The notes under the pieces were generated by a model. That model was not told where the DNA came from. It was given only the letters and a program-made list of their open reading frames with translations, and did not search any database. 64,000 nt of DNA. It comes from Pyropia yezoensis. Lineage: Eukaryota > Rhodophyta > Bangiophyceae > Bangiales > Bangiaceae. This document shows, piece after piece, positions 34,931 to 61,470 of this stretch (the first letter of the stretch is position 1; the number at the start of each line of letters is the position of its first letter). The position numbers and the translations under genes are program-made. The stretch is from NCBI GenBank assembly GCA_009829735.1, contig CM020620.1, positions 16,155,186 through 16,219,185 on the forward strand, read 5' to 3'.

Positions 34931-35399
34931 TGTGGCAGTATTGACCCCCAGGTAGGGGGGCAACACGTGCCATGCAAGGGGCGGCAGGCCACTAGCCTGA
35001 TCCGTTCCCCCCCCTGCATTTGGGTCCATATTCCCTCAGTTTGGGATAGTTAGCTTAGTAGTAAATCCAACTTGGATTTGAGGGTTTTCTGCATTTATCG
35101 TCTTGAATTTTCGTGTGGCCCGGTGGGCAGGTGCTGGGGTGGGAGATTCTGAGTGGCGAGATTCTGAGGGGACCCTGGGGGGATAAGGGGAGGGACAGCG
35201 GGGCTTGGCCCTGCGTCCCCGTCCCGACCAAGAAGCTGTTGGACCACACACCATCCTCTTGTTTGTCAGTGGGAAGTTTGCCCCACAACGGGGACAGAGT
35301 GTGTGCGACTTGCACTTCTTCCGGTTCCCCCGACACGGGAGGCAGCCCTTGTACACCGCCCCAACTTGGGTGCCGTGTGTGTAAGTGGTTTTTGCCACA
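34931..35399 (+). repeat. 5' LTR of gypsy element
   Basis: 469 bp, TGTGGCAGTATTGACC to GGTTTTTGCCACA. Contains a 17-bp perfect palindrome centred on CAACTTG (35063-35079) and an 11-bp one (35360-35370); both are present in the 3' LTR. Confidence 0.95.
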
Positions 35400-35401
35400 T
35401 T

Positions 35402-35418
35402 TGGTGGAGCAGCAGGGG
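35402..35418 (+). other. Candidate primer-binding site of gypsy element
   Basis: TGGTGGAGCAGCAGGGG lies 2 nt after the LTR. TGG is the complement of the tRNA CCA end, and the rest would pair with a tRNA whose 5' acceptor strand begins GGAGCAG. The specific tRNA is not identified. Confidence 0.45.
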
Positions 35419-35518
35419 ACAGAGGTAAACTTTACCTCCGGGTGCACCCGGGTGTAGGGGGCCCTCTGTCTCGGAGGAACGGTGGACTTGGACCGTGTCA
35501 TACGGATCGTCAGCCAAC

Positions 35519-37465
35519 ATGGCTAGTTCGGACCCCCCGTCGTCCGGGGAGTACACGGGTGACGCACGTACGTCAGGGCCTTTGAATACTGGTGAGACAC
35601 AGGTGGGTTTACCTGGGGTCGCAGAGGGACTAGAGGTCCCTCAAGCCAGCAGGACTGGAAGTGCGGGCGGGCAACAGGCCACCCCGACTCAGTCGGGAGT
35701 TCGCTCGGGTGACACTTCTGATGTGGGTGGGCCGAAGTCTGGCCACCGTGTGGTATACTCAACGGGAACGTCCCAAGGGGTGAGGACTGTCCCCGCGGGT
35801 TCCACTCGGGTTGGAGCCAACTTTGGCTTGAAGCCGTCGCCAACTAGGCTTTCGGGGGACGGCGGACCTCCGTTGGTCGGCGATGGGCTCGCGCCCATGC
35901 CCCCGGTTGAGACCCCTGAGGAACGTGGTTACCCCTCAGGTGGACTCCCGGAGGCGGACCGAGACTGAACTGGAGTCGTCAATTCACTCCTCGCGGAAGC
36001 TGTCCGTCGGGAGGCGACCAATGTGTTGCGGCAGACTTTGCCGGACCTGGTGGTCAGGATGACGAATACTATTCTGAATCAGATTGTGGCGAGTTTGCCA
36101 GATGGCCTCAATGTCCAGTCCGGATCGGGGCTTTCGAGCCCGCAGGCGCAGGGGGAATCCCTCCTCACGCCTATCTCGGGTCGCCTCGAACAGGGGGCGA
36201 CACCTGTGACTCCCAACGAGGGAGCCACACCATACTCGGTGGGGCGTACGCCCTTCATAGGGGAGTTCCCCCCGGAAACGCCGGCGGCTACACCAAGCGC
36301 GCCGCGCCAGACTATGGGCACTGAGGGTGAACTTGCCCAAGTGCCACAGCGGCTGTTCCCTCAACGTGAGGTGCCGCCCAAGATCCAGGTAGCCAACCCG
36401 GTGTACCAGAGGATCTTCGATTGTGAGACCTACGCCCTCCACAATAGGTCGGTGGCATATGGTCCTGACCAGGCCCAAGCCAAGAGCCGTGCCAAGAAGA
36501 ATGCACTTCACTCTTTTGGGCACAAAGCGGAGTGGGATGGAACTCCCCCCCCTTCGTGTCTTTGAGTTCCTACGTCGTTTCACAAAAGCCTGTGACGACA
36601 ATGCCATAAGTGAAGGCATGGCTTTCTACATGCTACAGGAGTTTACGAAGGGAGACCTGCGGACAGAACTTATGTCCGTCATGCCCAGCTTCTCAAGTGG
36701 AGGCGCTGGTGAAGTGACGTCCTATTTGGAGCTCGTCAATTGGTTGTTGAGAGCCATGGTTGATGAAGCGGCGCTGGCTTCTCAAGTCGAGGAGTTTACG
36801 CAAGCCCATCAGGAAGAGGCGGAGGACGAGTTGTCCTTTGCGGAGCGAGTCCGTTAGCTCAACAATCTTTGTGGGTTTCTTCATCCACAAGCTGTGGTGA
36901 AGAGTCGGTTTGTGGAGGGACTCCATTGGTCAGTCCGGATGGAGACCCGGGAGCATAACACTGCCCGGGCGACCCTGGCCGAGTTGGTGAGGCTCGCCTA
37001 CCGCAGAGTCGAGGCCTACCGCAAGTTGCGGGAGGAACAACGCCAGGAGCGTCAGGCCGAGTTGGCCAAGGAACGGGAGGAGGCGCGCCAGGCCAGAGAG
37101 TTGAGAGAGGCACGCCGAATCCGCAAGGAGAGGGTGGTAGCTGCCGTGGGAACTTCCCAGGGTATCTCTTCGTCTTCCCCAGTTGGGAAGACCCCTCCGG
37201 GAACGACAATCGGTGTTGGAACTGCAACTCCGATGGACACTGGGCATATGATGGCCCCAAGTTGAGTAAACGCAGCCAACAACTTGTTAGGAATGCGAGT
37301 AAGAAGTCGGCTACGAACGAAGTACGTTCACGCCGCGAGGGTGGGTCTCGACCGGTGGTGGCGGTCGCCACACCCTCGGCGAAGGGGGCGGACACGTCGT
37401 CCTCGGACTCGTCGTCTTCCCTTTCGTCCTCATATTCGGACGCCAAGTCGGCGGGAAACGAATGA
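35519..37465 (+). pseudogene. gypsy gag (with two stops and two frame changes)
   Basis: ATG 35519 (MASSDPPSSGEYTGD) begins a Gly/Pro/Ser-rich N-terminus. TGA at 35966-35968 is followed in frame by EAVRREATNVLRQTLPDLVV. At a C8 run (about 36545-36552) the frame moves to the capsid-like core (LRVFEFLRRFTKACDDNAIS, then ELVNWLLRAMVDEAALASQV). TAG 36855 interrupts AERVR-LNNLC, where Gln is usual. A basic coiled stretch follows (RKLREEQRQERQAELAKERE). After another phase change near 37165 comes the nucleocapsid knuckle RCWNCNSDGHWAYDGP, with the last Cys replaced by Gly, then a Ser-rich tail ending GNE and TGA 37463-37465. The stop overlaps the pol ATG. Confidence 0.85.
37453..37459 (+). promoter_or_regulatory. 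Candidate -1 ribosomal frameshift site GGGAAAC
   Basis: G GGA AAC sits in the gag frame as X XXY YYZ (zero-frame codons GGA AAC), one codon before the gag stop TGA 37463. A -1 slip continues GGG AAA CGA ATG ACC straight into the pol frame. GGGAAAC is an established functional slippery heptamer in retroviruses. A 4-nt overlap ATGA (37462-37465) offers reinitiation as an alternative. I see only weak stem potential downstream. Confidence 0.65.
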
Positions 37466-40400
37466 CCGTTGGAGCTGGTCGTCCGATGCTCACAACGGCA
37501 GCCTCGGCCAAGTGGGTCAACAGGACGAACCAACCGTGCCGGATACTGCGGCGACCTAAGGGAGTCCGCCCACGTCGGGTAGGACTCCCCAAGAACGTAA
37601 ACCCACGTCGGGTCATCGCGGTGCTGACGGGTGAGAACTTCCAGGTGGCTGGACGGGTGCAACTTGCCCCCGGCCGCGCCTGTTGTGCCCGTATCGTACT
37701 TGATACCGGGTCAGGAGCCTCCTTGATACGCAAGTCGCTATTACCAAAGGAGGTGAAGCTCCAACGCTGGAAGTCTAAAGCTGACCATCTGATCGATATC
37801 AATGGTGGGGTACTTCCCATCGTTGGTGCCGTGACCCTACCAACTAGGTTGGGGACCCATGAGGTCGACGTGACCTATGGTGTAGTTGACAATATATCGG
37901 TACCCCATCTTCTGGGTACCCCTTATGTCGTAACACAAGTGCCTTTGATTTGTGGCCCTGAGTACTGGGTCAAGTTGATGAATGGGGAGACTATCCCCAT
38001 CCTTGGTAAGAGAAAGTCTGTGGCTCCTGTGACAGTCTCACAGTCGAAGCCTGTTTGCTCTGTGAGAGAAGGGTTTACTGCTACCCTGCGTTTAGCCCGT
38101 AAAGTCACGTTGCCCCCCAACTCGGTGGCGCACGTTGACGTTGTAACTGATTATACGGGGAACGGGTTGGTGCACCCTTACCCTCGTCTTGCTCGCAAGC
38201 ACCAAGTGCATGTTGCCCTTGGCACGATGGACTCCAAAGCCGGAGTCCCGTGGAGGATCCAGGTGATGAACCTGAGCTCGTCACCCAAGTACTTCAAGTC
38301 GGGAGCCAAGTTCGGCTGTATCGACCAACACGAGGGACCGGTAGTAGCGGTCACCCTCAACGCGGGCGCAAGTAGCGACCCGAAGTCCGGAAAGGAGAAG
38401 CATCAAGCCAAGTCGGCCGCCTCTCCTCGGCCCCATGTGAACATGGAGGGTGTTCCATCCAGGTTGAGGGTTCAAGTTGAACGCCTCTTGGACGAATATC
38501 ACAAGTTGTGGGATGGTCAATTGGGACTCATGAGAGCCACCCAACACCGGATCGAGTTGAAGCCCGGTGCACCCCCTATACGCCAACAACCGTATAGGGG
38601 AGGACCTCGTTCAAGGGCCCTCGTTAAGGAGCAAGTTGCTCGCATGGAGGCCCTCGATGTGATCGAGGCCAGTAACGCCGAGTGGGCGAGTCCGGTGGTT
38701 ATCGTCCCCAATGTTGATGGGACCCCCCAGTTCTGTATCGACTACCGTAAGCTCAACGAGAGCACGGTGAAGGACAGTTATCCCCTACCTAGGATGGACG
38801 ACTGTCTGGACTCTCTGGGGGAGGCGAACGTGTTCTCTACCCTGGACTGTAACGCGGGGTACTGGCAAATTCCCATTGCCCCGGAGGACAGGCATAAAAC
38901 TACCTTTACCTGTCACTGTGGTACCTACCAGTGCAAGCGTCTACCGTTTGGCCTGTGTAACGCGCCGGCAACTTTCCAGCGCGCTATGGACATGGTTCTG
39001 GCCGGAGTACGGTGGCAGATCTGTCTCGTGTACCTAGACGATATCATTGTGTTCTCCCGAAGTCCGGAGGAACACATTGGCCATCTTGGCCAGGTGTTCA
39101 AGCTACTTGCTGACGCCGGTGTGTCACTGAAGGCGAGTAAGTGCCACCTCTTCACTCAAGAGGTGGAATACTTGGGACATGCTGTCCGTCCGGGGCGTCT
39201 CAGTGTCAACGAGAAGAACTTGAGGGCCATCCGTAAGGCTCAGTACTCCCGGACCCAGACCCAGATGAGGAGCTTCCACGGGATGTGTAACGTGTACCGA
39301 CGTTTCACCAAGGGCTTCGCCAAGGTGGCGAAGCCGTTGAATGAGTTAGTGAGCTCCACGCTACCGAAGAACCTGCCTCCCCCAAGTCGGGTGGAGCAGG
39401 AATCCTTTGAGACTCTTCGGGACCTTCTGCTGAAGCCCCCTATCCTGGCTATTCCCAGGTTGGGAGGCCACTACATCCTGGATGTGGACGCTAGCTACGA
39501 CCACCTTGGTTGAGTGTTGCTTCAGCAGCAGCCGGACAAGGAGCGCTTGCCGGTGGGATACTTCAGCAAGGGGCAGAACTCGGCCGAGAAGAACTATGGA
39601 GTCACCGAGTTGGAAGGACTCGCAGTGGTGTGGGCGGTGACGTCACTTCGTCACTACATAGAGGGTGAGAAGTTCCTCATCCGCTGTGACCACCGCGCGT
39701 TGCAGTTCATCTTTAAGACGGATTGTACGAACACTCGTCTCAACCAGTGGAGGGTGCGACTGGCACCCTTCAACTTTGATATTGAGTACCGACCTGGCAG
39801 GCAACATGCCCTTGCCGACGGCCTCTCTCGGGTACCTACCGAGGGGCTGGACACTAACCCAGTCGATGAGGACATCCCCATCGTGGGGGTAGTCACGCGC
39901 TCGGGTCAGGCGTTGAACCCCGAGGCGCCAGGGAACAAGAAGTACTTGCCCCTGTCCCTGGACGAGGTGGTGAAGGCCCAGGCCGAGGATCCCTTCTGCA
40001 AGTCGCAAAGGGATACACTGGATACAGTGGCGGAGACGCGGTTATTTATCGGAGACGATGGCCTCCTCTTGAGGAAGGGGGTAATCCAGGGGACCGAACA
40101 ACTTGTCGTCCCCGCATCCCTTAAGGACAGTATTCTTGAGAGGGAGCATAACGCTCCCACAGGTGGACACCTGGGGTCTAGTAAACTGTACCAGACCCTG
40201 AGGACCAGGTACTACTTGCCATCCATGGTGGTGGACACCTACAGTTGGGTGGCTGCCTGCACAAGTTGTGCACAGAACCGTCTGATGGAACGGCGGCCTA
40301 CTACGGCTATGCTATTGTTCCCGGCTAAGGAGCCCTTTGCCGCGTTGGCAATGGACATCCTTGGGCCACTGCCAGTGACTGAGAAGGGCAACCAATACCT

Positions 40401-41445
40401 CCTGGTCATCTGTGACCGCTTCACGAAACTTACGCGAGCGGTCCCACTGGCAGAGATCACGGCCATGTCGGTCGTGTCAGCCTTCCTAGATCACTGGGTT
40501 GCCGCGTATGGCATTCCGGATAGTACACTATCGGACAATGGACCGCAATTTGCGTCTGTACTGTTTCAGGGAGTGTTGGATATGTTGGGGGTGCGGGCAA
40601 ACTATGCCACCCCCTACCACCCACAAACTAATGGGCAGGTGGAGCGCTTCAACAAAACTATTGTTCGGCAGCTGCGCCACTATGTGAGTGAGCATGTGAA
40701 AACGTGGGACCAATACATTTCTATTCTTACCACTGCCTACAATTCGCAGGTTCACTCATCTACCGCGGAAGTACCCCTCGCTTTTGTGACCCCCCGTCGC
40801 GTGCGGTCTATTGCCGTGCGGCGGCCGCTCCCAACTAGGAAGGATGGTGGCAGTACGCCTACTCCTACTGAGAGTAAGGCGGAGTTCGCTGCTAGGCTTG
40901 AAAACCTCATCCCTAAAGTCAGGGCTGAGATGGACAAAGCACAAAAGCGCTACAAGCGTACCTTTGACAAAAAGGTGCGCAACGCCAAGCATGTCCCCGA
41001 GCAGGGTGACTGGGTATTGGTCCACTCACGCACCCCAACTGGGGGGAAGTTGGTCTTCCAAACGAAGGGGCCGTACCAGGTCCTTCGTACTAATGGGCGG
41101 CGCTTCACCATCGAAAGTGACGATGGGGTCCGCACAGTGAACGGGCAGGATGTGGTCAAAGTTGCACCACCGCCTGCAGGCGACCCAGCTTGGGCGCGTG
41201 CGTTGGAAGCGTGGCGCCTCCCCTCACTGCCTGCGGCCAAACAGGGCCCGCAGGAGTACGTGTTCGATAAGTTCATCGACCACGGCTGGGATGAGGACAC
41301 TGACCGCCTCATGTTGAGGGTGCGTTGGTTTGGCTACAAAGCCAAGGATGATACGTGGGAGTATGTGGAGGACCTTCCCGCTGAGAAGGTCCGGGCATAC
41401 TGTGCCCGGAATGAGATAGACCCTAGCAGCCTTCCCTCAACGTGA
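37462..41445 (+). pseudogene. gypsy pol: PR-RT-RNaseH-IN-chromodomain, one in-frame TGA
   Basis: Open from ATG 37462 to the stop at 41443-41445 except TGA 39511-39513. Aspartic protease ARIVLDTGSGASLI; RT with FCIDYRKLNESTVKDSYPLP, CNAGYWQIPI, LPFGLCNAPATFQRAM and the catalytic YLDDIIVFS; RNase H beginning YILDVDASYDHLG, where the TGA interrupts just before VLLQQQ, then GYFSKGQNSAEKNYGVTELE. Integrase has the HHCC region (HNAPTGGH, CTSCAQNR) and acids in AMDILGPLP, LSDNGPQF and NGQVERFNKTI. The C-terminal chromodomain reads YVFDKFIDHGWDED, then LRVRWFGYKAKDDTWEYVED. All catalytic residues are present. The TGA splits RNase H near its active site; apart from it pol would be full length at about 1,327 codons. 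Confidence 0.95.
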
Positions 41446-41453
41446 GGGAAGGC
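41429..41453 (+). terminator. Hairpin spanning the pol stop codon
   Basis: Perfect 11-bp arms (GCCTTCCCTCA / TGAGGGAAGGC) with loop ACG; the pol TGA (41443-41445) lies in the right arm. Two more hairpins directly precede it (41370-41392 and 41390-41410). A role in termination or RNA processing is a guess. Confidence 0.4.
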
Positions 41454-41538
41454 CGAGTAACAGTGCCAAGAGAGTGCTTCAAGTCGAAGTGGTACGCAGA
41501 GTGGCTTTTAACTACAGCCCTAACCCTCACACTCTCAC

Positions 41539-41544
41539 AATAAA
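41539..41544 (+). promoter_or_regulatory. AATAAA signal after pol
   Basis: Canonical AATAAA about 95 bp after the pol stop and just beyond the 3' end of the convergent antisense ORF (41557). If used, it would make a sub-genomic sense transcript lacking the antisense region. Confidence 0.35.
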
Positions 41545-41556
41545 AGCAGCTGCCAA

Positions 41557-43500
41557 CTAGGCACGCATGCTAGACTCTCCAACCCCACGGCCCTCGCCCT
41601 CACGTGGAGGCGAGCGGCGAGACCCACGCCGATAACGTTCCCCACCAGTCGGCGGGGCCGGCGGCTCCAAGTCGGAACCGTCGCGCCCCTCACGGTCGCG
41701 CAAGTGGCGACGACCGCGGCTACCCTTCTGCTTGGTCTTGCGCGCAAGTTGGCGACGCAGACGCCGGACCGACTCCGACTCTGACGGGGTAGAGGACTCC
41801 GAGACGGAATAAGACAACTCGTCTTCCGACACGGAGGGAGAGCGCCGCGAGCGTCGGCGACGACGGCGAGGAGGCGAGTATGCCCGGCTCGCGCGACGTT
41901 TGCCACGCCCAAGTGGGGCTGGCTGGGGCATAATAGCCCCAATTCGAGCCAACTCGGCCGTCATAAACTCCGCCACCGACTCGCAACTCGCGGTCGCCAC
42001 TGCAGTACGAACGCGCTCCTCAAGTTGAGGAGTCTCGGAAGTTTGAAGGGTTGCGGTCGACGCGGCCAACCAGGAAATGGTGCGCACCAACGTGGTGATC
42101 ATCATCTCTGAGGTTAGAGGCGTGGGCGGTATCACCAACTTGGGGTATACCGTCAGGAGGGTGGCCCCCAAGTTGGGGGACACCGGGGTGGGCGACTCAA
42201 CGGCCACGCTAATTGGGATGTCCCCGTGCGGCTGGTAGGGGACAGGAGGAAGCGGAGGGGCACGCCGAGGTGGCGGGACCCGGGTGTAACTGCGACCCCG
42301 ACTTGGGGCCCCCGCAGTGGGTTGAGTCATATGGTCATCATGTGAGGGCACGGCCAAAACTATGGCCTTGTCCGGGGGTGGCGCAGTGTGGCGATCCACC
42401 CCCGGGGCATACGGGTAGTCCCCGATGCCCAACCCCTCTTGTAGGACCACACGGCCGTCGTGAAGTTCACGAGCGACCCATACGAGCTGGCGAAGTGCGC
42501 CACCCTCCTTGGGCCCACGAGTGGGGCGGCGCAACTTGTGCTCAATGCTCTCCCACTCGATAAACTTGTGGAGGCGGAGCATCTCCTCAAGTAGAGTGAG
42601 TTGTCCTGATGAGCACCCCTCAGAAACTAGCTGAGGGGTGAGCTGTTCCAAACCTTGGATGAGCCGGAGGGGGAGATGCCAGAGCATCCCCCGCCGCTGA
42701 ACACAAGACACCCAGGTCGACATGACCTCGAGGAGCCACTGGGTGGCCAACATGGCCCACACCAGGTGATCAGGGCCAGCCGTCAACATGATGGCGCCGA
42801 AGTGGTCAAGCAACCGTGGCAGCAACGCCGGGAACCCGTAGGGGACCTCAACTTGAGGCCACCACTCGGGCTTCTTCGGATAGTACTGCTCCTTACAGGC
42901 AGCAGACTGCTGAGGGAACTCAAGTTGAGCCGAGGTCACCAAGTGGGGACCTCGCCGGAAGTCCTTCTCCATCCGCACATCAAAGTGATGAGTGTGCGGA
43001 TCGGCCTCGTGAAGGTACGGGGGGCGAGTTGCCACCGCGTCCCAAGTAAAGGTCGGCAAGTCGCCGTGACCCGGGATAGTTCCCCCGCGGTCCACCATGG
43101 CCTTGGCCCGCTGTATGTCTTCGACCTCCTCATCGTCCAGAAAGGCAAACTGGTCCGTCCTGAAGCCGGCAGGGAACCCGACCCTACGGGGATACTTCTC
43201 CCGTAGGCGGTCCCATACCCGACCCATCGCTGCGCCAAGTCGGCCACAGCGAAGATCAGTCAACCCCTCCTCATATAGAGGCCAAGCGGGGTAAAACCAC
43301 CGCCCCAAGGCCTCACGCGGGACAACTTGTCCCGCCTCCGGGGGAGGTCCCGCCGTCAACCCAAAGCCGGGTGACGCGGGAGTCCCATCCCCCGGAGCGA
43401 TCGCGGAGCCCCCGCCGGAAGTCCCGGCGGGCGCTGCACCGTAGGAGGTGTCCTCCATACGTTCGTCGAGAGAGTCCATCTCCACCCCCGGGGTCGCCAT
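41557..43500 (-). CDS. Antisense ORF (647 codons) inside the gypsy element
   Basis: Starts at ATG 43498-43500 (MATPGVEMDSLDERMEDTSY) and is open to the stop at 41557. It lies between pol and the 3' LTR, on the strand opposite gag-pol, and has no stop or frameshift although every sense gene of the element is damaged. Layout: Gly/Pro-rich N-terminus to about residue 65; a folded-looking region, residues 70-400, rich in Trp, His and Leu (GRWFYPAWPLYEEGLTDLRC, LLPRLLDHFGAIMLTAG, MLWHLPLRLIQGLEQL); a Pro-rich linker; a helical segment (SVAEFMTAELARIGAIM); then a basic/SR tail (RRRRRRSRRSPSVSEDEL, further RS and Arg clusters) typical of nuclear or nucleic-acid-binding proteins. I recognise no domain. 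Antisense ORFs near the 3' end are known in a few plant gypsy lineages; relationship to those is untested. Confidence 0.8.
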   Translation of the reverse strand: MATPGVEMDSLDERMEDTSYGAAPAGTSGGGSAIAPGDGTPASPGFGLTAGPPPEAGQVVPREALGRWFYPAWPLYEEGLTDLRCGRLGAAMGRVWDRLREKYPRRVGFPAGFRTDQFAFLDDEEVEDIQRAKAMVDRGGTIPGHGDLPTFTWDAVATRPPYLHEADPHTHHFDVRMEKDFRRGPHLVTSAQLEFPQQSAACKEQYYPKKPEWWPQVEVPYGFPALLPRLLDHFGAIMLTAGPDHLVWAMLATQWLLEVMSTWVSCVQRRGMLWHLPLRLIQGLEQLTPQLVSEGCSSGQLTLLEEMLRLHKFIEWESIEHKLRRPTRGPKEGGALRQLVWVARELHDGRVVLQEGLGIGDYPYAPGVDRHTAPPPDKAIVLAVPSHDDHMTQPTAGAPSRGRSYTRVPPPRRAPPLPPVPYQPHGDIPISVAVESPTPVSPNLGATLLTVYPKLVIPPTPLTSEMMITTLVRTISWLAASTATLQTSETPQLEERVRTAVATASCESVAEFMTAELARIGAIMPQPAPLGRGKRRASRAYSPPRRRRRRSRRSPSVSEDELSYSVSESSTPSESESVRRLRRQLARKTKQKGSRGRRHLRDREGRDGSDLEPPAPPTGGERYRRGSRRSPPREGEGRGVGESSMRA

Positions 43501-43824
43501 GGCTCTCCCCAAGTTGGGGAGAGACGCCCTGGCTACAGCGGCACGAGACCCGCCTCGAGTTGAGGGGGACTCGGATCGTGGGTAGACGGGTGGCCTCTCC
43601 AGCGTGGGGCGGCCCCGTGGAAGGTGAAGGGGAGGTGGTGGTGATGGTGAAGTGCGAACCGGGGAGAGCAGGCTGCCGATTGGGCAAGATTGAGGAGAGG
43701 GGCGGCCAACGTGACCGCCTCCACATCCGCGTTACGTACTCAAGGGGGGACACCAAGTCGCGCCCCCAACGCCGAGACGTGCGTTTACGCACCCCCTCAC
43801 AGGGCCGACCGGGTCGGTCGGAAC

Positions 43825-43838
43825 TGAGGAGAGGGGAG
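43825..43838 (+). other. Polypurine tract of gypsy element
   Basis: GAGGAGAGGGGAG directly precedes the 3' LTR start, the expected position for the plus-strand primer. Confidence 0.8.
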
Positions 43839-44307
43839 TGTAGCAGTATTGACCCCCGGGTAGGGGGGCAACACGTGCCATGCAAGGGGCGGCAGGCCAC
43901 TTGCCTGATCCGTTCCTCCCCCTGCATTTGGGTCCATATTCCCTAAGTTTGGGATAGTTAGCTTAGTAGTAAATCCAACTTGGATTTGAGGGTTTTCTGC
44001 ATTTATCGTCTTGAATTTTTGTGTGGCCCGGTGGGCAGGTGCTGGGGTGGGAGATTCTGAGTGGCGAGATTCTGAGGGGACCCGGGGGGGATTAGGGGAG
44101 GGACAGCGGGGCTTGGCCCTGCGTCCCCGTCCCGACCAAGAAACTGTTGGACCACACACCATCCTCTTGTTTGTCAGTGGGGGGTTTGCCCCACAACAGG
44201 GACAGAGTGTGTGCGACTTGCACTTCTTCCGGTTCCCCCAACACGGGAGGCAGCCCTTGTACACCGCCCCAACTTGGGTGCCGTGTGTGTAAGCGGTTTT
44301 TGCCACA
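43839..44307 (+). repeat. 3' LTR of gypsy element
   Basis: 469 bp, start TGTAGCA (one change from TGTGGCA), end TGCCACA, followed by the duplication CGAAG. Differences from the 5' LTR are few. Confidence 0.95.
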
Positions 44308-52003: not shown

Positions 52004-54889
52004 ATGGCCTCATTGGCCGGCGGGCGCCCGCCCGGTGGCGTGCGCTTCACGGTGGCGACGCTGGCGGGCCCCCCCGCGGGGTCGTACCTCCTCCGCTGGG
52101 TCGCCGCCAGCTCGTCCATCCCCCCCGCGTCAACGCCCGCCGTCACCCTGCGCACCGCCGCCACCCCGGTTGTCGGCGGCGGCGTCGGTAACGCTGTCCG
52201 AGCGGGGGGGGGGTCCCCTTGGGTGACCTCCCTCCGCCTGTCGGGCGTCATGGGGGACCTGTCGCTAGTGGCGGTGCGGCTGGTGGCCGGCTCCGCGGTG
52301 GAGGAGGTGGTGGCGTCTGGGACGGTGCGGCCGGGCCAGCTGGGCACCAACCCCGACGTGATGGTGACGCTGGAGGGAGTAGTGTCGGGGGGGGCCGGGC
52401 GGGTGGGCGGCACCGCCGTGCCTTCTATTGTGATCCGCGGTCGGACGGTTGAGGTGGCCGCCGACGAGGGGGCCGAGGATGAGGACGCGAGCGACTCGGA
52501 CGGGCTGTCGGACGCGGAAACGGATGTGGAGGCGATAGGGGACGAGGGAGGAGGGGGGGGGGGGTGGGCCGCCACTGTTGTGCCCAGTGCGGCCGCCGCG
52601 GCAGCGGGGGCGGGGGCGGTCGCGGCGGGCGCCATGGCCGCCGCCGCGGGCGCAGTGGCGGGCGTGGCACGGGCCGTGGCGCCCGCGTCAATGGCGTCGG
52701 CGCCGGTCGGGGCGGCACCCGCGGCGGTTGCCAGGGCGGCGGCCGTGGCGGCACGTCCGACCGTGGCGGCCCCAGCCGTCGGCAACGGCGTCGAGTCGGT
52801 CGAGGAGCTCCGGTCACGGGTGGCGGCGCTAGAGGCGGCGCGGGCCTCCGACCGGCATCGGCTAGAGGCGTACGCGACGCACTCTGCCAAGACCAAGGCC
52901 ACGTACGCTGAGCTCAGCACCATGTACAACGCCCTGCGGTCGGCCTACTCGGCACTGCGGGCCAAGCAGGGGGCGTCGGGGGTGGTTGTCCCCTCGGCGG
53001 CCGCCCCTCCAACGCCCATGCCAGCGTCAACGGGGGACGACAGGGGCGGCGAGGTGGCCCGTGGGGCGACCCCCGCTGGCGGCGGTGCGAACGGGTCTGC
53101 GGGCAGCACGAGCGACGCTGGCGGGCGCGCGGAGGAGGCGGCGGAGCTCCGCATCCGCCTCACCGCCCTGACCGCCGCGTCGGCCGCGTCGGAGCGGGCG
53201 TCGTCGGCTGCCGCGGCGGCGTCTGCGGCGACGGAGCGGCAGGCGCGCGAGGCGGCGGCCGCGGCCGAAGCGGTGCGGACGCGGATGGCTGAGGAGCTGG
53301 TCCTTGCCCGCCGTGCGGCGGTGCCGGTTCCCGAAGGCGCGGCCGCGACGGCCGCCGCGCTCGCCGAGCGGGACCGCGCCCTCGCGGTGGCCGTGTCGGC
53401 GACGACCGCAGCCAAGGGGCGGGTCGCGGCGGCCGAAGCGGGGCTGGCTTCGGCAACCGCCCAGGTTGCACGCCTGGCGGCGGGCAACGGACTGGCCGAG
53501 GCCTTGACCGCTGCGGCCGCCGCCGTTTCCACCGCCTCTGCCGCCGGGACGGGGCGCGAGGGCGTCGCCTCGACGGCCGAGGCGGCGGCGGCCACAGCCG
53601 ACGCGGAGCGGGCCCTGCGCGCGCAGCTCGCCGCGGCCACGGCAGAGGTAGCAGCGGCCACGGCCGACCGCGACTCGGCCCGCGCCGTCGCGGAGAGTGC
53701 CGAGGCGGCCGTGGTGGCCGCCGAGGCACGGGCGGCGGACGCAGAGACGAGGGCAACCGCAGCGGAGGCGGCGGCCGCCGCTGCCGACAAGGCCGCCACG
53801 GAGGCCCGTGCTACGACTGCGGACGCGCAGGCGGCGGCCGCTGCGTCGGCGACCGCGGTCGACGAGGTCAGACGCGCGGGGGCAGCCGCGGCCGCAGCAG
53901 CCGCCGCGGCCGCCGCGTCAGCGGCTGCCATGATTGCTCGCCTGGAGGGCGAGCGGGACGATGCGGTCGCCCGTGCGGGCGCGGCGGAGCGCGCGGTGGA
54001 CGGCGCTCGCGCCGATGCCGAAGCGGCCGCCGCCGATGTGGCGGCGCTGCGACGGCAGCTAGCGGCCGCTGAGGAGGCTGCGGCGGTTGCCGAAGAGGCC
54101 GGCGTGGTCAGCCGCGGCATGTCGCGTGTCACCGACGAGGACGAGGCGGGCAGCAGCAACAGCCGCGACGGCGACACGGCCGACATGGCCGCCCGTTTGG
54201 CTGCTGCCGAGGCCGCACTGGCCAAGGCAGGCGCCGCGGCGGCGGCCAAGGAGGCCCATTTCCAGCGCCTATTGTCGCTCCTCGCGGCGCTGCGAGCCGA
54301 GAGCGAGGCGGCTGACGCGGAGATTGCGGCGCTTCGGTCCGCGGCGGCAGCGGCCCCTGCGCCTCCACCGCCCGCGGCGGGCGACGCTGCCGAGGCGGCC
54401 GCGACGGCCGCGGCGGCGGCCGAGGCGACCAAGGCCGCCGCCGCGTCAGGGCGGCAGCTCCGCTCGGCGGTGCGGCGGCTAGAAGCGATGAAGTCAGCAC
54501 GCGACGCGGCCGAGGCGGCCGCCACCGCAGCGGTTCGTCGCGCCGAGGACGCCGAGGCCCGCCTGGCCGACCGCGTCGCCGCGGCCGCTGCGGGCACCGA
54601 CCGTGCCGTTGGCGCCGACGGTGGCTCTGACGAAGTGGTCCGTGAGATGGTGGCGACCAAGGTGGAGCTTGCCGAGGAGCGGGAGCGGAGCGTCAAGCTC
54701 CGAAATCAGCTCAATAAGCTAGCCAACGGAGTGGCGGCGGAGGAGGCGCAGCCCTCCCTGGCCGAGGGCGGCCGCCGCTGGTCCCTGTCGCTCAGCCCAG
54801 GAGGGGAGCGGCGGTCGTCGGGGGGGCGGCGGCTGTCGGATTCACCATCGTCACCAGACGACCTGCAGGCGTTTGCGGCAGCGAATTGA
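52004..54889 (+). CDS. Large Ala-rich coiled-coil protein, C2-like N-terminus
   Basis: ATG 52004 (GCCATGG context) to TGA 54887-54889, 961 residues, one uninterrupted frame. Residues 1-150 look beta-rich (VRFTVATLAGPPAGSYLLRW, SPWVTSLRLSGVMGDLSLVA), possibly an NT-C2-type domain as in some coiled-coil membrane-tether proteins; that is a guess. Residues 155-190 are acidic. From about 265 onward runs a heptad-like coiled coil (EELRSRVAALEAARASDRHR, TYAELSTMYNALRSAYSALR, then long Ala/Glu/Arg stretches). The C-terminus is Ser/Arg-rich (SLSLSPGGERRSSGG). A cytoskeletal or vesicle-tether role would fit the layout but is not shown. The 583-codon antisense ORF is a compositional shadow. Confidence 0.8.
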   Translation: MASLAGGRPPGGVRFTVATLAGPPAGSYLLRWVAASSSIPPASTPAVTLRTAATPVVGGGVGNAVRAGGGSPWVTSLRLSGVMGDLSLVAVRLVAGSAVEEVVASGTVRPGQLGTNPDVMVTLEGVVSGGAGRVGGTAVPSIVIRGRTVEVAADEGAEDEDASDSDGLSDAETDVEAIGDEGGGGGGWAATVVPSAAAAAAGAGAVAAGAMAAAAGAVAGVARAVAPASMASAPVGAAPAAVARAAAVAARPTVAAPAVGNGVESVEELRSRVAALEAARASDRHRLEAYATHSAKTKATYAELSTMYNALRSAYSALRAKQGASGVVVPSAAAPPTPMPASTGDDRGGEVARGATPAGGGANGSAGSTSDAGGRAEEAAELRIRLTALTAASAASERASSAAAAASAATERQAREAAAAAEAVRTRMAEELVLARRAAVPVPEGAAATAAALAERDRALAVAVSATTAAKGRVAAAEAGLASATAQVARLAAGNGLAEALTAAAAAVSTASAAGTGREGVASTAEAAAATADAERALRAQLAAATAEVAAATADRDSARAVAESAEAAVVAAEARAADAETRATAAEAAAAAADKAATEARATTADAQAAAAASATAVDEVRRAGAAAAAAAAAAAASAAAMIARLEGERDDAVARAGAAERAVDGARADAEAAAADVAALRRQLAAAEEAAAVAEEAGVVSRGMSRVTDEDEAGSSNSRDGDTADMAARLAAAEAALAKAGAAAAAKEAHFQRLLSLLAALRAESEAADAEIAALRSAAAAAPAPPPPAAGDAAEAAATAAAAAEATKAAAASGRQLRSAVRRLEAMKSARDAAEAAATAAVRRAEDAEARLADRVAAAAAGTDRAVGADGGSDEVVREMVATKVELAEERERSVKLRNQLNKLANGVAAEEAQPSLAEGGRRWSLSLSPGGERRSSGGRRLSDSPSSPDDLQAFAAAN

Positions 54890-55761
54890 GGCGACTGGTT
54901 GCAGCCGCCACACCGGAGCGGGGAAGGAGGGCGGCTGGGCGGCACATGAACTTTTTGTCGCCGCGCTGTGCTTCTGCCGCGTGGCCGGGACGCTTGACGG
55001 GGTATCGCGACGGCCGCTACCCTTACTGCCCCCTTTTGTCGGCTGCCATTGTCGGCCGACCTAGGACGTTCCTGGTGAGCGGGCGGCGTTCGTCCCGTCT
55101 GGCGAGCGCCACGTGAGCTTGTGGCGGACCTGTACGTGAGGCTGACATGTGGCTACTGGCAGCGTGGCCATGGGTAGGCGACAGGGAGATTGGGGGAGGT
55201 GGGCTGTGCAGGGGCGGAGCTCCCGCAGTGGGCGGTGCGGGCGTATGTGTGGGGGTGGTCCCTGGCCCCTTAGGGCCCGCCCGTTCCACCCCCATTCCTA
55301 CCCCTCCACCTGATCGCCCTCGGTCGAGCGCCTCGGCTTGTCTGCAGCATCCCCGCTGGCCGGAGACCTCGGGGGGGCGTTCTCCTCTTGCTTGTGACAG
55401 CGCTGTCGCGTGGCGTTGAAAGCGGCGCCGTGTTCTCCCCCATCCCCTTGCACGTGGCGGTGCGGCGCCCTGCCGCCACAACCCTTGCATTGTGCCTGTG
55501 TGCGTTTTGGACCCGCCTCCGAGCGCTGACTAGTTGTTGGGGGGATAGAGACAGAGTGGGGCATGGCAGGGACGGGGGGCGGGGGGCGTGGGGTAGGGGG
55601 GAGCGATGTAGGGCGCTTGTATCAATCGTTTGATGGCGCGGCTCGTCCTCTTGCTTTTTTTTTCTTAACTGTGGGTATGCTGTATTTTCTGGGTGAGCTT
55701 CTCAGTCGTTGGGTCTGTATGTCTAGTGGTGGTGGCCCTTGGGCCGGCGACTTCGACAGCG
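54890..55761. other. Intergenic, no supported gene
   Basis: Probably the 3' flank of the coiled-coil gene and the 5' flank of the next ORF. No domain is seen on either strand. Confidence 0.35.
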
Positions 55762-56061
55762 ATGGCCTGCACAGCTGCTGCCGCGGCGGCCGTTGCGCCC
55801 GCGGCCGCAGCTGCGGCTGCCGTCGTTGCGTCCGCGGTCTTGGGCGTGGCCGGCGGTCGGCTGCCGACCGTCACGGCGCACGGCGCACGACGCGGCGCTG
55901 GTAGAGAGCGCCCTCTTTATCCTTACGGTGGCCGCCGCAGCTTGGCCAGCCTACAGCTGCGCTTTGGTCAACGAATGATGCCCCCCAAGAGCCGGGGGAA
56001 CGCCATTACGGACCCCGCAGTCACTTCCGCCGCCGACCTGCAACTCTCCCCGCCACCTTGA
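55762..56061 (+). CDS. Small Ala-rich hypothetical protein
   Basis: ATG 55762 to TGA 56059-56061, 99 residues. The first 30 residues (MACTAAAAAAVAPAAAAAAA, then VVASAVLGVAGG) form a hydrophobic Ala-rich segment like a transit peptide or membrane anchor. The rest is basic (GRRSLASLQLRFGQRMMPPK). An overlapping frame ends in AALVESALFILTVAAAAWPA and stops at 55976-55978, which is also protein-like, so an indel or intron near 55880 cannot be excluded. No family is recognised. Confidence 0.35.
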   Translation: MACTAAAAAAVAPAAAAAAAVVASAVLGVAGGRLPTVTAHGARRGAGRERPLYPYGGRRSLASLQLRFGQRMMPPKSRGNAITDPAVTSAADLQLSPPP

Positions 56062-56904
56062 GTCGCACTCTGGCCATGACTCATCCCCCGTCCGCTCCCC
56101 ATTGTCCTTACCCTTCATCGAGCGCGGAAGGCCTTCCGCGTGGGGTTTCCCGCTGTCGAAGGCAGAAGCGGGGGCGCCTCACGTCCCCCCGGCGACGGTC
56201 GCGAGCAGACGGCAGAGGCCAGCAGCTGCTGACCAGACTGCCTCGGCCTGGTTTGCAGAGCGCGACAGCCATATGTCTATCTCCACTCCTAAATCTCCTC
56301 CTGCATGTGACATAATTATGTAAGATTTCTACAGTTCTCATGCGTAGTTTTTTCAGTGGAAGAAAAAACCCAGCGTGAAGCAGGCAAATGGCCTTGCAGT
56401 TGATGTGTGACATCACCGGTGATGCACCGGAGTATGAGGGGTCCGTGTGACCCTTGCAGCTACATATTGTACGAGCAGAACGCGCAACCGTGGATGCAGC
56501 CCCAGACCCCGTCCGAGGGTGCAGCTGCAGACCTCACCCGCGGTTGCAGCCGCAGACCCCATCCGCGGTTGGTTCGGCCGCTGCGGGCCGAGCCAGTGGG
56601 CAGCCTTCTTGAGTTCGCGCCCGCGCGCCGCCCTCCATCGCCCGCTATCACATCTACGACGTACATACTTTCCCATTGCCCACGTGCTCTCCCGTGGGCG
56701 GCCTCTGTCTACCTGTGTAGGTCTGGTGTGGGTGTCTCTCTTGCCATGTGCTGCAGCGGCGGTCTTTCCGCGTTTTCCCCTCCCGCCGCTCTGTTCCTGC
56801 GCACGTATCCGTCTGGTCACCCCCGCCTGGCCGAGGCGGCCAGCCCGTGCACCCGCCCAGCTCCCTTCCCAGCCCAGCCCAGCCACCGCCGCCGCCGGTG
56901 CACC

Positions 56905-57339
56905 ATGGCGGCGTCTGAGGCGGCCAGCCTTTCGACCAAGTACGTGACGGGAGACCTGGACCACGTGGCGATGGACGTTGCCAATGTGGATGCCGTCCTG
57001 CCCTTTTACACCGACATCCTGGGCTTGGAGCCGTTGCGGCTGGCAGAGTTCCACGGCGGTGGCGTGCCCTTCCCGTCGGTGCGCATCAACGCCGCGACCA
57101 TCCTCGACTTTTTCCCCGCCGGAGACGCCTCTGCGGTGCCGTCGCCCGGCCCCGCGGGCCACCTGTGCCTCAACCTCGGCCGGCAAGACTGGGAGGCGGT
57201 GCGCCGCAGGGTTCAGGACGCGGGGCTCCCCGCGGGGCCCGTGCGGCAGCTGAGCGGCGCCCGCGGCATGGGCACCTCGGTGTACCTCAAGGACCCAGAG
57301 AATAATACGGTGGAAATCCGTTACTACCCAGACGCCTGA
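56905..57339 (+). CDS. VOC/glyoxalase-fold protein
   Basis: ATG 56905 (CACCATGG) to TGA 57337-57339, 144 residues. It reads as one VOC module: LDHVAMDVANVDAVLPFYTD, then LGLEPLRLAEF, GHLCLNLGRQDWEAV and YLKDPENNTVEIRYY. The metal ligands expected for the fold (His of LDH, His of GHL, Glu of VEIR) are present. VOC proteins include glyoxalase I, extradiol dioxygenases and antibiotic-resistance binders; substrate is not predictable. The same frame is open upstream; ATG 56743 would add an N-terminus (MCCSGGLSAFSPPAALFLRT) resembling an organelle transit peptide, so the true start is uncertain. Confidence 0.85.
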   Translation: MAASEAASLSTKYVTGDLDHVAMDVANVDAVLPFYTDILGLEPLRLAEFHGGGVPFPSVRINAATILDFFPAGDASAVPSPGPAGHLCLNLGRQDWEAVRRRVQDAGLPAGPVRQLSGARGMGTSVYLKDPENNTVEIRYYPDA

Positions 57340-57591
57340 GCGACGGCCGCGCGCGTGAGCGGGTGCGACTATGTGGTGGTGGTGTGTGTGTAGAGGGGCG
57401 GTGTGGGCCTACGTGGTGTGCGCTAGCTGCAGCTATAAAGAGGTGGGGGGGGTGCGTGCCGGTGGACGCCGTGCCATGTGTTTGCTTGCAAGTCGTTGCC
57501 TACTCGCCATGGCGCCTGCCATGGTCGACAGTCGCGGACCAAGGACTGAGGCCGCCCCAAACAGAGGCGATAGCGACGTCCGCACACCATC

Positions 57592-58095
57592 GTGAGCGAC
57601 TGCGCGCCGTGCTTCTGTGAGAGAACCGCAGTTCCAAAGCTAGACACTCCCGAGTACTTCCCCCCCTTTCCCCGCCCCCTGCCAGGCTCCCACTCGGTGG
57701 ACGTTGGTACCCTTTCGCCCCGCCGACGCCACCCTCCGCGTTCCCACTACAGTGTCCGCCGCCGCGCCCCCATCTCGCCACGTCCAGACGTGGCGGTCGC
57801 ACGACCGCCCCCTGCCTGCCCGCCCGCCCGGCCCGTACCAAACGGCGTGGTTGTCGTCGTCCGTGGCGGACGGGCCTCCCCGACGCCCGCGCGGCCGACC
57901 CTGGGTTGCCCCCCGCGCGGTCGCCGGTTGCGTGGCGCGCCGACGTGGCGGCGGCTCACGGTGGCGGGGGAGGCTCCCGCCGGCTGCGGCTCTGACGCGG
58001 GCGATCAGGACGGCGGGGACTCGGACGAGGCGGGCCTCCCACCCGCCGAGGTCCGCCGCCGCCGCGCGTCGGCGCGCCGGTCACGAGAAAAATAA
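57592..58095 (+). other. Weak ORF, hypothetical
   Basis: Open frame with no ATG at its start. The C-terminal part (PNGVVVVVRGGRASP, then acidic AGDQDGGDSDEAGLPPAEV and basic end) looks mildly protein-like. Competing frames on both strands make this doubtful. Confidence 0.2.
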
Positions 58096-58134
58096 CCAGG
58101 TTGCCGCAGCGGCGCTCGAGTTTCGTTGTCCCTG

Positions 58135-59923
58135 TCAGGGGTGATTGAGACTGGGCGGACGCAGGCGCACCGCCGCGCGCTGCTCGCGACCAAGAGGCAG
58201 CCCCTTGCCGTGCGCGCGGGCCTCTCCCTGGGGGGACGGGAAGGACTGCCTGGCGGACTGGGGGAGGGGCTGGGGGGGGGGTCCCGGCATGCCACTGCTG
58301 CCACGGCGGTGAGAGGAACCACCGGCAGGCAGCGGTGCCGCTTTTTTTCTTTTCTCTTCATGCTCTTGGTCTTCTCGTGGCTTTGGCTGCGGGGCAAAGT
58401 TGGCATGAGCACGGCACACGTTGGTGCGGGCGGGGGGGGGGGGCGGGGATTGCATCCTGCGGTGCACGCCCTGCACTGCAGGGCCAATATGTGAGGGGGA
58501 GAGGGGCAGGCACGCGTGCGTCAGGCCCGGCTCGAGGCCGCGCATGACGCCCATGGCCGGGTGATCCCGAAAGTGCTGGTACGCCTCCACGTCCTCCGAG
58601 CCCCACCCGACAAATCGCTCCTCCTCGTTGCCCCCAAAGCCGCCCACCGCGTCCCAGCTGCTCCGGTGCGCACAGACGGGTCCGTAGGAGGAGGTGCGCC
58701 AAAAGCCCGTGGCGGGAGACAGGCCCGGCCGGGTGCCCGCGTAGTAGTTCCAAAAGATGGGATACCACACCTGCCCGCCGGCCAGCGCGTGCGCGCGGCA
58801 GTTGCGCACCGCGTCGGGGGAGACAGTCAGGTCCACGTCGGTGACGTAAAAGAGGGCGTCGGGGGCGAGGCCCGCCACCGCGTCGCGGACGGCGACGGAG
58901 CGGGAAAAGGCGCCCGCCCGGTCGCCCCCGTTGGTCACCACCGTCACCCCGTGCGTCAGCTGGGAGGGGGCAGGCGGGGGGGCGGTGCTGCCCGCCGGCC
59001 CGCCCTGGGGCAGGGGGGGAGGTTGTGACGGCGGTAGCAGCGGCAGCGAGGCGGCCGCCACCAGGCGGTGCACCTCGGCCACGTGTGCAGGGAGGGTGGC
59101 AATGGCGAGCCCCAGCGCCGCGTCGGTGGACCGCAGCCGTCCATAGGTCCGGAGGTAGGCGGCCAGGCGGGCGGGCCGCCCCGCGTACGGGACGACGAGC
59201 GTGACGGGCGCGGCCACCGGCAGCGGCAGCGTGGCCACCGTGCACCCGCGGCCTGTGCGGGTGTCATCGCCGACGAGCGGCCGGGAGACGACCACCTTCC
59301 ACGCCAGCGGGGTGGGCGTCGGCGTCGTTGCCGCCGCCGCCGAACGCCCCCGCCGCACTACCGGCAGCGGCGGCGGTTCCGCCGCCGCCGCCGCCGCGGC
59401 GGCCGCCACGGCCGCCGCATCGGCGGGGCGGGGCGTCGCCGCCGCCGCCACCGCGTCAATGTCGTACACCCACACGTCCCCGCCGTCGGCCGACAGGCGG
59501 TGGTGTGTCTGGAGGATGGTCAGGGACGCCAACGCGGCGGGCGGCCGGGCGGCGGCGGCGGCCGGGGCGGCGGCCGCCGCCGCCGCCGCCGCCACCTCCG
59601 CGGCGACGGCCGCCGCCCGCTCCTCCTCCAGCGCCGCGCCGAGCGCGTCGAGCGCGACCGCCGCCGAGGCGGTCCACCGCCGCGCCCACCCGTCGGGCCA
59701 GTAGATGCGGTCAATGCCGAGGCCCCTCCCCGCGAGCGTGCGGAGCGCCCACCGGGTGGGGCTGACAGACGAAAAGAGGGTGTCCCCGTCGGGGGGGGAG
59801 CCGACGCGGTCCTATCTCCCTCCGCAATCCATAGTCGCGACTCCCTCCCATGCCGAGAGTCACGAAGCGGTTGGCAGTGCCCGCGGAGTCGGCGACGCGC
59901 GAGAGTTCCTTGGCGGGTTTCAT
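58135..59923 (-). CDS. Chondroitin GalNAc-transferase-like glycosyltransferase (GT7-type)
   Basis: The main frame runs from about 59798 to the stop at 58135. Upstream coding (ATG 59923, MKPAKELSRVADSAGTANRF) joins it across a homopolymer (8 C on this strand, 59791-59798) where one base changes the frame. Motifs in order: VTLVVPYAGRPARLAAYL (nucleotide-sugar-binding entry); HGVTVVTNGGDRAGAFSRSV; DALFYVTDVDLTVSPD with the DxD metal site; GFWRTSSYGPVCAHRSSWDA; FVGWGSEDVEAYQHF, matching the GWGxED block of the GT7/CHGN family. These enzymes add GalNAc or related sugars in the Golgi. The C-terminal 120 residues after GLEPGLTHAC are low complexity and may be non-coding if an intron follows. An Ala-rich insert precedes the catalytic domain. 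Acceptor and donor are unknown. Confidence 0.85.
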
Positions 59924-60087
59924 CAGTGGCTCGTTCGTGAGTGGGACGGTTCCTGCACGGGCAGGAGCTCGGGCAGAGAGAAGAGCAGAGGAGGGGAGGG
60001 GAGAGTGGGGGGCCAGGGGAGGGGGAGAAGAGGGGGGGGAGGTAACCACACCTCTTCCCACGCATCCACGGCACCGGGCGTCAGTGA

Positions 60088-60487: not shown

Positions 60488-60527
60488 CTGGTTGACCGGC
60501 GCGGGGGGGGGAGGCAGGGGCGTCGGG

Positions 60528-60950: not shown

Positions 60951-61470
60951 CCCCCCCGCCCCCCCCTCCCCTCCCGGCCCAGCGCACCGCTCTACAGAAG
61001 GAAAAAATGAGCCGCAAGGCCAGAACAAGAAGCAAGAGAACTTGCAAGACCAGCTACGCCCGCCAGCCCCCCTCGCAAAGAACTCACAACCCGACCCGAC
61101 CCGATGCTATTGGCCCCCTACACACTCTCCCCCGGTGCGACAGCAACCCCATACGGACTGCTCTGAGCGCCTGAAAGTCACACCCCCCTTCGTCCGACGA
61201 CAAATGCACAGAATGTGGGGGGGGGGGCGAGCTGGTGTGGGGCAAAGAGAGAATGCCTGTTCCGACGCGTCGCGCCGCGCAGCGCCACCACCGCCACTTC
61301 CAATGACTGCCACGGGCGAGAACGGTGCCGCCGACGGCGGCGGCACGCCCAGCACTGCCGCCGTCCCGGGGCACGTTAACAGAGCCATTCCAGTCGAACC
61401 CCCCGGCTCCGCCTCCAACATACGCACCGACACCCAATATCCCTCAGCTTATGTAGTCCGACACCGCCTC

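Follow-up and report, generated by a model that had tools for sequence, protein, structure and literature searches.

Within a 64,000-nucleotide window of the Pyropia yezoensis genome (contig CM020620.1, positions 16,155,186 to 16,219,185 of the forward strand), we found that a Ty3/gypsy long terminal repeat (LTR) retrotransposon at 34931-44307 contains about 65 dyads that appear capable of forming hairpins, the 3' LTR not being counted. Each dyad spans about 13 bp: around the conserved five-base centre AA(G/C)TT lies a C-G pair, and outside it come three base pairs of arbitrary sequence, following the scheme NNN-C-AASTT-G-N'N'N' (S, G or C), usually with at most one inner mismatch. The CAASTTG centre was shown to be specific to one element clade in the DNA sampled, and the arms were shown to be held complementary by compensatory change, with the effect ending at distance 6 from the centre. 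From these sequence comparisons we tentatively propose that they are recognition dyads kept by selection during replication of the element, with a putative element-encoded reader.

The excess of odd, perfect palindromes was judged against 100 dinucleotide shuffles. The results showed that 38 stems of at least 5 around a 3-nt centre were present in the element, compared with 10.6 (standard deviation 3.1) in the shuffles, and 9 stems of at least 7, compared with 0.8. Even palindromes with a 4-nt centre showed no excess (15 vs 10.6 for stems of at least 5, and 0 vs 0.8 for at least 7), and no comparable excess was found for 4-, 6- or 8-nt loops, the largest being that of the 8-nt loops (17 vs 10.5). 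The initial annotation of this DNA had described palindromes around CAA(G/C)TTG throughout the element, and all ten of its examples were confirmed in both position and arm length. Its count of 21 CAASTTG 7-mers holds if the 3' LTR is not counted a second time (23 were counted in 34931-44307), and the mononucleotide expectation in the element is 0.44 + 0.39, where it had estimated about one by chance. The handful reported elsewhere in the window numbered six; two of these, at 830 and 1124, and not one as reported, appear to lie in the related solo LTR, to which they were assigned because their spacing is that of the two LTR sites. The statement that nearly all cores extend into longer palindromes was slightly too strong: at least two of the three arm pairs at distances 4-6 were found in 17 of the 21 non-redundant cores, and four were without them.

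What had been missed is that cores with one mismatch likewise carry complementary arms, giving about three times as many sites. Frequent one-step variants with arms included CAAGTCG, CAACTCG, CAACATG, CAACGTG, CAAGTGG, CAACTAG and CGAGTTG, among others. We defined a broad core class, in which the outer C-G pair is kept and at most one inner mismatch to CAASTTG is allowed, and counted it in 34931-43838. When the 80 cores in these 8.9 kb were picked by the core alone, the arms were complementary in 70, 60, 42, 30 and 30 of the 80 at distances 4, 5, 6, 7 and 8, respectively, against a background of about 0.27, and 65 of the 80 had at least two of the three pairs at distances 4-6. The rest of the window (54.6 kb) contained 75 broad-class cores, the arms of which were paired at 0.27, equal to chance. 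The total number of sites varies with the definition, being 59 with both LTRs included and 65 without the 3' LTR. The four Watson-Crick pair types were all present at every distance, with C-G somewhat preferred, indicating that the arms are not a fixed sequence; 35 distinct left triplets were found among 65 sites. The GC share of the arm pairs was 0.80-0.83 at distances 5-6, compared with about 0.69. CpG decay of a CGASTCG ancestor was considered and rejected, since the element has a single exact CGASTCG; one CAA or TTG half, if not both, thus seems to be required.

The dyads were distributed at about 7 per kb across LTRs, coding and non-coding DNA. No regular spacing was seen (59 quasi-sites, coefficient of variation of spacing 0.91, near random), nor was a reading-frame effect, since dyad centres occur in all three frames. 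The dyads, to which no strand is assigned, are as follows.

35065-35077, full core, 5' LTR; palindrome 35063-35079, arm 8
35303-35315, core CGACTTG, 5' LTR
35359-35371, full core, 5' LTR
35512-35524, core CAACATG
35838-35850, core CAACTAG
36359-36371, core CAACGTG
36691-36703, core CAAGTGG
36780-36792, core CAAGTCG
36824-36836, core CGAGTTG
36885-36897, core CAAGCTG
37019-37031, full core, arm 6
37055-37067, core CGAGTTG
37176-37188, core CCAGTTG
37277-37289, full core
37441-37453, core CAAGTCG
37506-37518, core CAAGTGG
37657-37669, full core
37838-37850, core CAACTAG
38115-38127, core CAACTCG
38206-38218, core CATGTTG
38366-38378, core CAAGTAG
38406-38418, core CAAGTCG
38470-38482, full core, arm 6
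38499-38511, full core
38629-38641, full core, arm 6
39079-39091, core CATCTTG; relatives show compensatory change at distance 5
39100-39112, core CTACTTG; full core in L030, with compensatory change at distance 5
39318-39330, core CAAGGTG, long stem
39380-39392, core CAAGTCG
39453-39465, core CAGGTTG
39499-39511, core CACCTTG; full core in relatives
39799-39811, core CAACATG
39996-40008, core CAAGTCG
40258-40272, full core, arm 7
40829-40841, core CAACTAG
41033-41045, core CAACTGG
41183-41195, core CAGCTTG
41307-41319, core CATGTTG
41435-41447, core CAACGTG, long stem
41477-41489, core CAAGTCG
41551-41563, core CAACTAG
41665-41677, core CAAGTCG
41698-41710, core CAAGTGG
41812-41824, core CAACTCG
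41907-41919, core CAAGTGG
41947-41959, core CAACTCG
41981-41993, core CAACTCG; full core in L030
42016-42032, full core, arm 8
42085-42097, core CAACGTG
42133-42145, full core
42165-42179, full core, arm 7
42296-42308, core CGACTTG; compensatory C-G to T-A at distance 4 in L030
42529-42541, full core
42585-42597, core CAAGTAG
42745-42757, core CAACATG
42781-42793, core CAACATG
42846-42858, full core, arm 6
42918-42930, full core
43022-43034, core CGAGTTG
43054-43066, core CAAGTCG
43233-43245, core CAAGTCG
43317-43335, full core, arm 9; missing in aligned L015, L030, L031, L032 and L033
43503-43523, full core, arm 10
43553-43565, core CGAGTTG
43704-43716, core CAACGTG
43971-43987, full core, arm 8, 3' LTR
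44211-44223, core CGACTTG, 3' LTR
44267-44279, full core, arm 5, 3' LTR

Further odd hairpins are centred on A(G/C)T with other flanks, for example at centres 36669, 37153, 37991, 39155, 39760, 41400 and 43421. Of the 247 AST centres that do not belong to the CAASTTG class, 22 had at least four of five pairs, compared with a background of 2.4%, and these hairpins are possibly a looser class.

The specificity of the centre was analyzed in 20 stretches of DNA by scoring every palindromic 7-mer core with at least 6 occurrences, which gave at most 128 types in a stretch. CAASTTG ranked top in the element (z 15.6) and in the three relatives scanned, L030 (10.4), L031 (10.5) and L015 (9.1). The runners-up in the element were CGASTCG (46, z 7.8), with one-mismatch members in common, and AAASTTT (9, z 5.9). 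The remaining 16 stretches total about 127 kb and take in distant chromovirus pieces from L024, L027 and L015; there the top z of any core was 4.5, and a host-wide process was rejected because this other DNA contained no core comparable to CAASTTG. CAASTTG itself came second in L023 (20 cores, 0.38, z 2.4). Weaker signals with other centres were seen in L023:2552-9901, L018:1-8019 and window positions 54001-64000 (CTGWCAG, z 4.5; CGTWACG, 4.4; TCGSCGA, 4.1), which may be chance in many tests.

The initial annotation had proposed that codon-preserving shuffles with similar counts would refute its reading, and we found far fewer sites in the shuffles than observed. With 500 synonymous-codon shuffles per open reading frame (ORF), the reverse transcriptase (RT) ORF had 13 sites compared with 1.25, the RNase H-integrase ORF 6 compared with 0.39, and the antisense ORF 16 compared with 1.93; in each of these ORFs, all 500 shuffles stayed below the observed count. 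Some counts were weaker. The two exact CAASTTG cores of the RNase H-integrase ORF were matched by 17 of 500 shuffles, and plain odd palindromes with arms 5 and 6 were matched by 15 and 6 of 500, respectively, in the RT ORF and by 62 and 220 in the RNase H-integrase ORF. The corresponding numbers for the antisense ORF were 0 and 1 of 500. Genome-wide, CTCAASTTGAG occurred at 3368 sites and TCCAASTTGGA at 2376, with 12 and 4 for the reversed controls, and the broken-arm pattern CTCAASTTGTC occurred 13 times forward and 12 times in reverse; the two high counts reflect mainly the copy number of the element. GCCAASTTGGC, the arm of which is not among the full-core sites of the window copy, occurred 172 times genome-wide compared with 852 for its reversed control; for this one arm, no wide use by other families was seen. 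No Rfam match was obtained at gathering thresholds, and one 643-aa query and six peptide patterns brought up no relatives in collections of viruses and prokaryotes. Taken with the relatives, the core scan and the comparison with the rest of the window support the earlier description of a family-specific, conserved centre with variable, self-complementary arms.

To follow the arms and cores in evolution, we compared the window copy with L015, L030, L031 and L032, relatives at 79-90%, giving five lineages of one genome, two of which are close. Loss of the palindromes in other family members had been named as a contrary outcome; both the members and these relatives retain many of them. In most rows of the aligned same-family copies, dyads were unchanged or altered at single bases, and in L015, L030, L031 and L032 many sites were kept, some were lost and some were found in a single lineage with the same core. 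The covariation of arms between copies that had been suggested for checking was found: among arm pairs at distances 4-6 with both sides changed, in 76 site columns, 11 of 14 were Watson-Crick pairs, compared with 271 of 953 controls (Fisher p 1.7e-4). Past distance 6 there was no compensatory effect (3 of 15 at distances 7-9 and 4 of 11 at 10-12, like controls). On terminal branches, change amounted to 5.8% in arms and 6.8% in cores against a background of 8.2-8.4%; armless cores changed at 12.0% (their arm positions at 7.6%), and other odd palindromes at 9.7% and 8.6%.

A direct conservation profile is also raised at other odd palindromes, and we therefore relied on a third-party test, in which conservation is measured between two lineages neither of which was used to define the site. 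All four tests showed increased conservation at distances 1-3 (p 0.013, 0/1000, 0.001 and 0.002), three of the four did so at distances 4-6 (p 0.016, 0.002 and 0.002), and there was no increase at distances 7-9 (lowest p 0.054). The full-core subsets of L015 and L031 passed at distances 4-6. Private mutations of single copies, which are mostly post-insertion, showed no clear depletion in cores (46/4765, 0.97%) or arms (35/4089, 0.86%) relative to all positions (973/92234, 1.05%), and these rates fit selection on replicating lineages rather than host upkeep in place. Selection or a mutational process had both been offered in the initial annotation; selection is better supported than a purely mutational process by compensatory change, by third-party conservation that in most tests goes no further than distance 6, and by the lack of a clear depletion of private mutations. 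A mutational share may nevertheless contribute. The interpretation given in the initial annotation is partly supported as a whole.

The proposed mechanism is that the dyads act in cis as recognition sites, and that a factor acting in trans would read a small stem with a fixed apex; a fixed apex on arbitrary paired arms is what is expected from a factor reading a small stem-loop. Reading would be strand-blind, either of DNA dyads or of hairpins in sense and antisense transcripts. The factor would most probably be element-encoded; we prefer this since, in the DNA sampled, only one clade has the sites. The first candidate would be the protein of the antisense ORF, because antisense proteins of Retand elements have been proposed to bind DNA and because of its basic tail, and the second candidate would be Gag. 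Through these sites the nucleic acid of the element may be labelled as its own, so as to be packaged or shielded from silencing, and selection would act on lineages that keep transposing, with inserted copies decaying roughly neutrally. The fuller version, a strand-blind self-recognition code over the whole element, with about 7 dyads per kb, a fixed AASTT apex, freely drifting and covarying arms that overlie coding sequence on both strands, and a putative element-encoded reader that separates own from host nucleic acid, is a doubtful extension at present. The pattern suggests an undescribed way of recognising the element's own genetic material.

Several observations weigh against recognition dyads kept by selection. 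At distance 4 the arm pairs show no increase in GC share (0.67), and at distance 7 their share is low (0.57). The stems are short, with mean pair probabilities in local folding of 0.51-0.61 on either strand and some sites near zero. Sites defined in the window copy failed the third-party arm test (p 0.278), as did the full-core subsets of the window copy (0.295) and L030 (0.156) at distances 4-6, and the simple conservation profile is inflated at any odd palindrome through the choice of sites. Changes at imperfect sites improved the site in 6 of 11 arm and 12 of 22 core cases, the lineages are only five, two of them close, and of the six copies that align along the full frame one has an intact antisense ORF. 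A further point, the lean of half-intact cores to the + strand, fits poorly with complete strand-blindness and bears on the nearest competing explanation.

That explanation, which we consider unlikely, holds that the dyads are hairpins of the sense strand only. They would serve the packaging or assembly of the genomic RNA as signals scattered along it, of the kind proposed for some RNA viruses, and Gag would bind their C(AASUU)G loops. RNA hairpins recognised by proteins usually have this form, with a conserved apex above an arbitrary stem, and the GC enrichment of the outer stem pairs at distances 5-6 agrees with it. In the window copy, arms were present in 42 of 62 cores with only the CAA half intact, compared with 19 of 36 with only the TTG half; the relatives show less of this lean (12 to 10, 12 to 11, 16 to 10 and 19 to 11; 24 to 14 over distinct columns). 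Private mismatches also lean towards GT (28, compared with 17 AC), whereas those common to at least two lineage groups were 4 GT and 7 AC, and at pair positions of distances 3-6 a GT alternative was found in 52 and an AC alternative in 42. The excess of G-U over A-C among imperfect pairs that a sense RNA predicts was thus not seen, and because GT and AC mismatches are about equally frequent, the pairing looks strand-blind. The + strand folds no better than the other, the mean pair probability of full-core sites being 0.607 and 0.600 on the two strands (other odd palindromes, 0.382 and 0.421), and the two-fold symmetry of the centre is unneeded by a loop read on one strand.

Somewhat more unlikely is a mutational origin, in which a sequence-specific factor or a polymerase pause at CAASTTG provokes strand-switching that copies one arm onto the other, so that the arms become palindromic unselected and the core alone is functional. 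The arbitrary arms, the fall of pairing with distance and the absence of a wobble preference would suit it, and conversion between arms could also produce compensatory pairs; on the other hand, the arms change more slowly than background, they are conserved between third-party lineages in three of the four tests, other DNA sampled has no comparable sites, and the palindrome 43317-43335 differs from its relatives on both arms, which is unexpected from one-arm copying if it was gained (by eye, polarity assumed). If the dyads were instead double-stranded DNA operators of a dimeric protein, such as an anti-silencing factor of the VANDAL kind or a transcription factor, without any hairpin, then the two-fold symmetric centre with S in the middle and the indifference to strand would follow, and VANC targets (PMC5735166) offer a precedent for a motif that is dense in one family; the arms, however, are arbitrary yet mutually complementary, independent reading of half-sites gives no covariation, and the sites lie in coding and non-coding DNA alike, so we regard operators as improbable. 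It is highly improbable that the sites are preferred targets of the family's own integrase, with AASTT as the 5-bp target duplication. Target duplications of 5 bp are present, LTR elements weakly prefer palindromes as targets (in the part of PMC6911290 available), and a solo LTR nested in L032 sits in the left arm of the dyad homologous to that at window centre 42302, about 5 bp off centre, but the duplications CGAAG, CACTC, GGGGT, CACCC, CGGAC and CAGAT (flagged or read by eye) are not AASTT-like, and a target preference would not yield covarying arms. Chance, base composition, codon usage and a common ancestral repeat have only the shortness of the motif in their favour, and they are scarcely credible given the dinucleotide and synonymous shuffles, the core scan with its 16 control stretches and the diversity of left triplets.

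How retroelements tell their own nucleic acid from that of the host is a long-standing question, to which the known answers mostly consist of a local signal or of a few such signals. In RNA viruses, dispersed packaging signals take the form of many degenerate hairpins along the genome with a shared apex and variable stems. In the gypsy element of Drosophila, the su(Hw) insulator sites are repeated protein sites in an LTR element, clustered in one region and of fixed sequence, whereas the sites described here are dispersed with covarying arms. The likeness to RNA-virus packaging signals lies in the shared apex and in a stem kept by covariation; the difference is that those act on sense RNA, whereas the dyads have an apex with two-fold symmetry and seem to pair without regard to strand. 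According to the part of PMC5735166 consulted, the VANC21 motifs of Arabidopsis VANDAL elements are non-palindromic 9-mers (YAGTATTAY), mainly non-coding, in one orientation and grown by tandem repeats, and an element-encoded protein recognises its own DNA, with motif and protein coevolving. The likeness to them is a short family-specific motif, dense and strongly enriched in one transposon clade. They differ in that the centre of our element is palindromic, the arms vary and covary, and the sites are scattered through an LTR element, in its coding as well as its non-coding DNA; fixed sequence, mainly non-coding location and single orientation were not found for the dyads. We regard VANC motifs as the closest working analogue and RNA-virus packaging signals (PMC6281560) as the closest structural one, each failing one tested defining feature. 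An excess of short dyads in some chromosomal DNA has been described at centromeres, with no fixed centre implied in the part of PMC9070824 consulted; in contrast, the element family is spread along all three large contigs among the matches listed. In the literature searched, with subscription journals mostly outside, we found neither a report of dispersed packaging-type hairpins in an LTR retrotransposon nor a named precedent for the dyads.

If true, a code of dispersed sites that share one fixed centre while their arms covary would give a motif directly testable on short oligonucleotides. A base-pairing constraint can overlie protein-coding sequence and an antisense gene at high density, and the scan of palindrome centres is a simple signature search applicable to other transposon clades.

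The element itself is composed of the following features.

34931-44307, + strand, Ty3/gypsy LTR retrotransposon with a weak chromodomain match; target duplication CGAAG, 5 bp
34931-35400, + strand, 5' LTR with three dyads (centres 35071, 35309 and 35365)
37462-39513, + strand, pol ORF part 1 (RT), with an in-frame stop at its end in the window copy
39514-41445, + strand, pol ORF part 2 (RNase H, integrase, weak chromodomain)
41557-43512, - strand, antisense ORF of 651 aa with an Arg/Ser-rich C-terminal part, of no known family
43838-44307, + strand, 3' LTR with the three dyads of the 5' LTR again (centres 43979, 44217 and 44273)

The two LTRs are 97.0% identical across 469 bp and have the ends TGTGG...CCACA, and CGAAG (read by eye) flanks the element on both sides. 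Where the two ORFs meet, the in-frame stop breaks the pol frame, and 1380-aa open frames were found in other copies. The Pfam families RVT_1, RT_RNaseH, Integrase_H2C2 and rve matched on the + strand in the Ty3/gypsy order (RT, RNase H, integrase). The Chromo match (residues 585-629, E 4.4e-4) reached 20.5 bits, below the Pfam curated cut-off of 25.1. The dyads had been placed in LTRs, gag, pol and the antisense ORF; those in LTRs, pol and the antisense ORF were mapped there, and gag was not confirmed, the two + strand ORFs tested upstream of pol, at 35495-36565, giving no Pfam match.

Compared with the relatives L009, L015, L030, L031 and L032, the antisense ORF showed codon-position periodicity (0.175/0.131/0.340 at positions 1/2/3 between the window copy and L030), indicating that it is or was a gene. 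Its protein matched 0 Pfam families at E up to 5, TRP28 (PF04195) included, and no solved structure; one homologue, at 95% identity, was found among 7999 scored candidates. In the plant Retand elements, also of the Ty3/gypsy type, an antisense ORF follows pol and precedes the 3' LTR, and its protein is proposed to bind DNA, according to the part of PMC11963269 consulted. The coding antisense ORF in this position is shared; Retand, however, is of a non-chromovirus lineage, whereas the red-algal element has a weak chromodomain match and an antisense protein without TRP28. The excerpts of the Retand literature consulted do not mention dispersed dyads.

The host genome comprises 107.5 Mb, with three large contigs of 43.6, 34.3 and 29.4 Mb; the same three contig sizes, and 48% repeats, mostly LTR elements, are given for Pyropia yezoensis in the part of PMC7423979 consulted. 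The element has an observed/expected CpG ratio of 0.80, compared with 1.01 for the remainder of the window, which suggests mild CpG loss in the element. The solo LTR of the same family (95.5% identity) lies at about 799-1267 on the - strand, its coordinates being derived by offset from the LTR sites; it has the 5-bp target duplication CACCC and retains three dyads (centres 833, 889 and 1127). The nested insertion at L032:3653-4121 is likewise a solo LTR of this family inside a related element, with the 5-bp duplication GGGGT.

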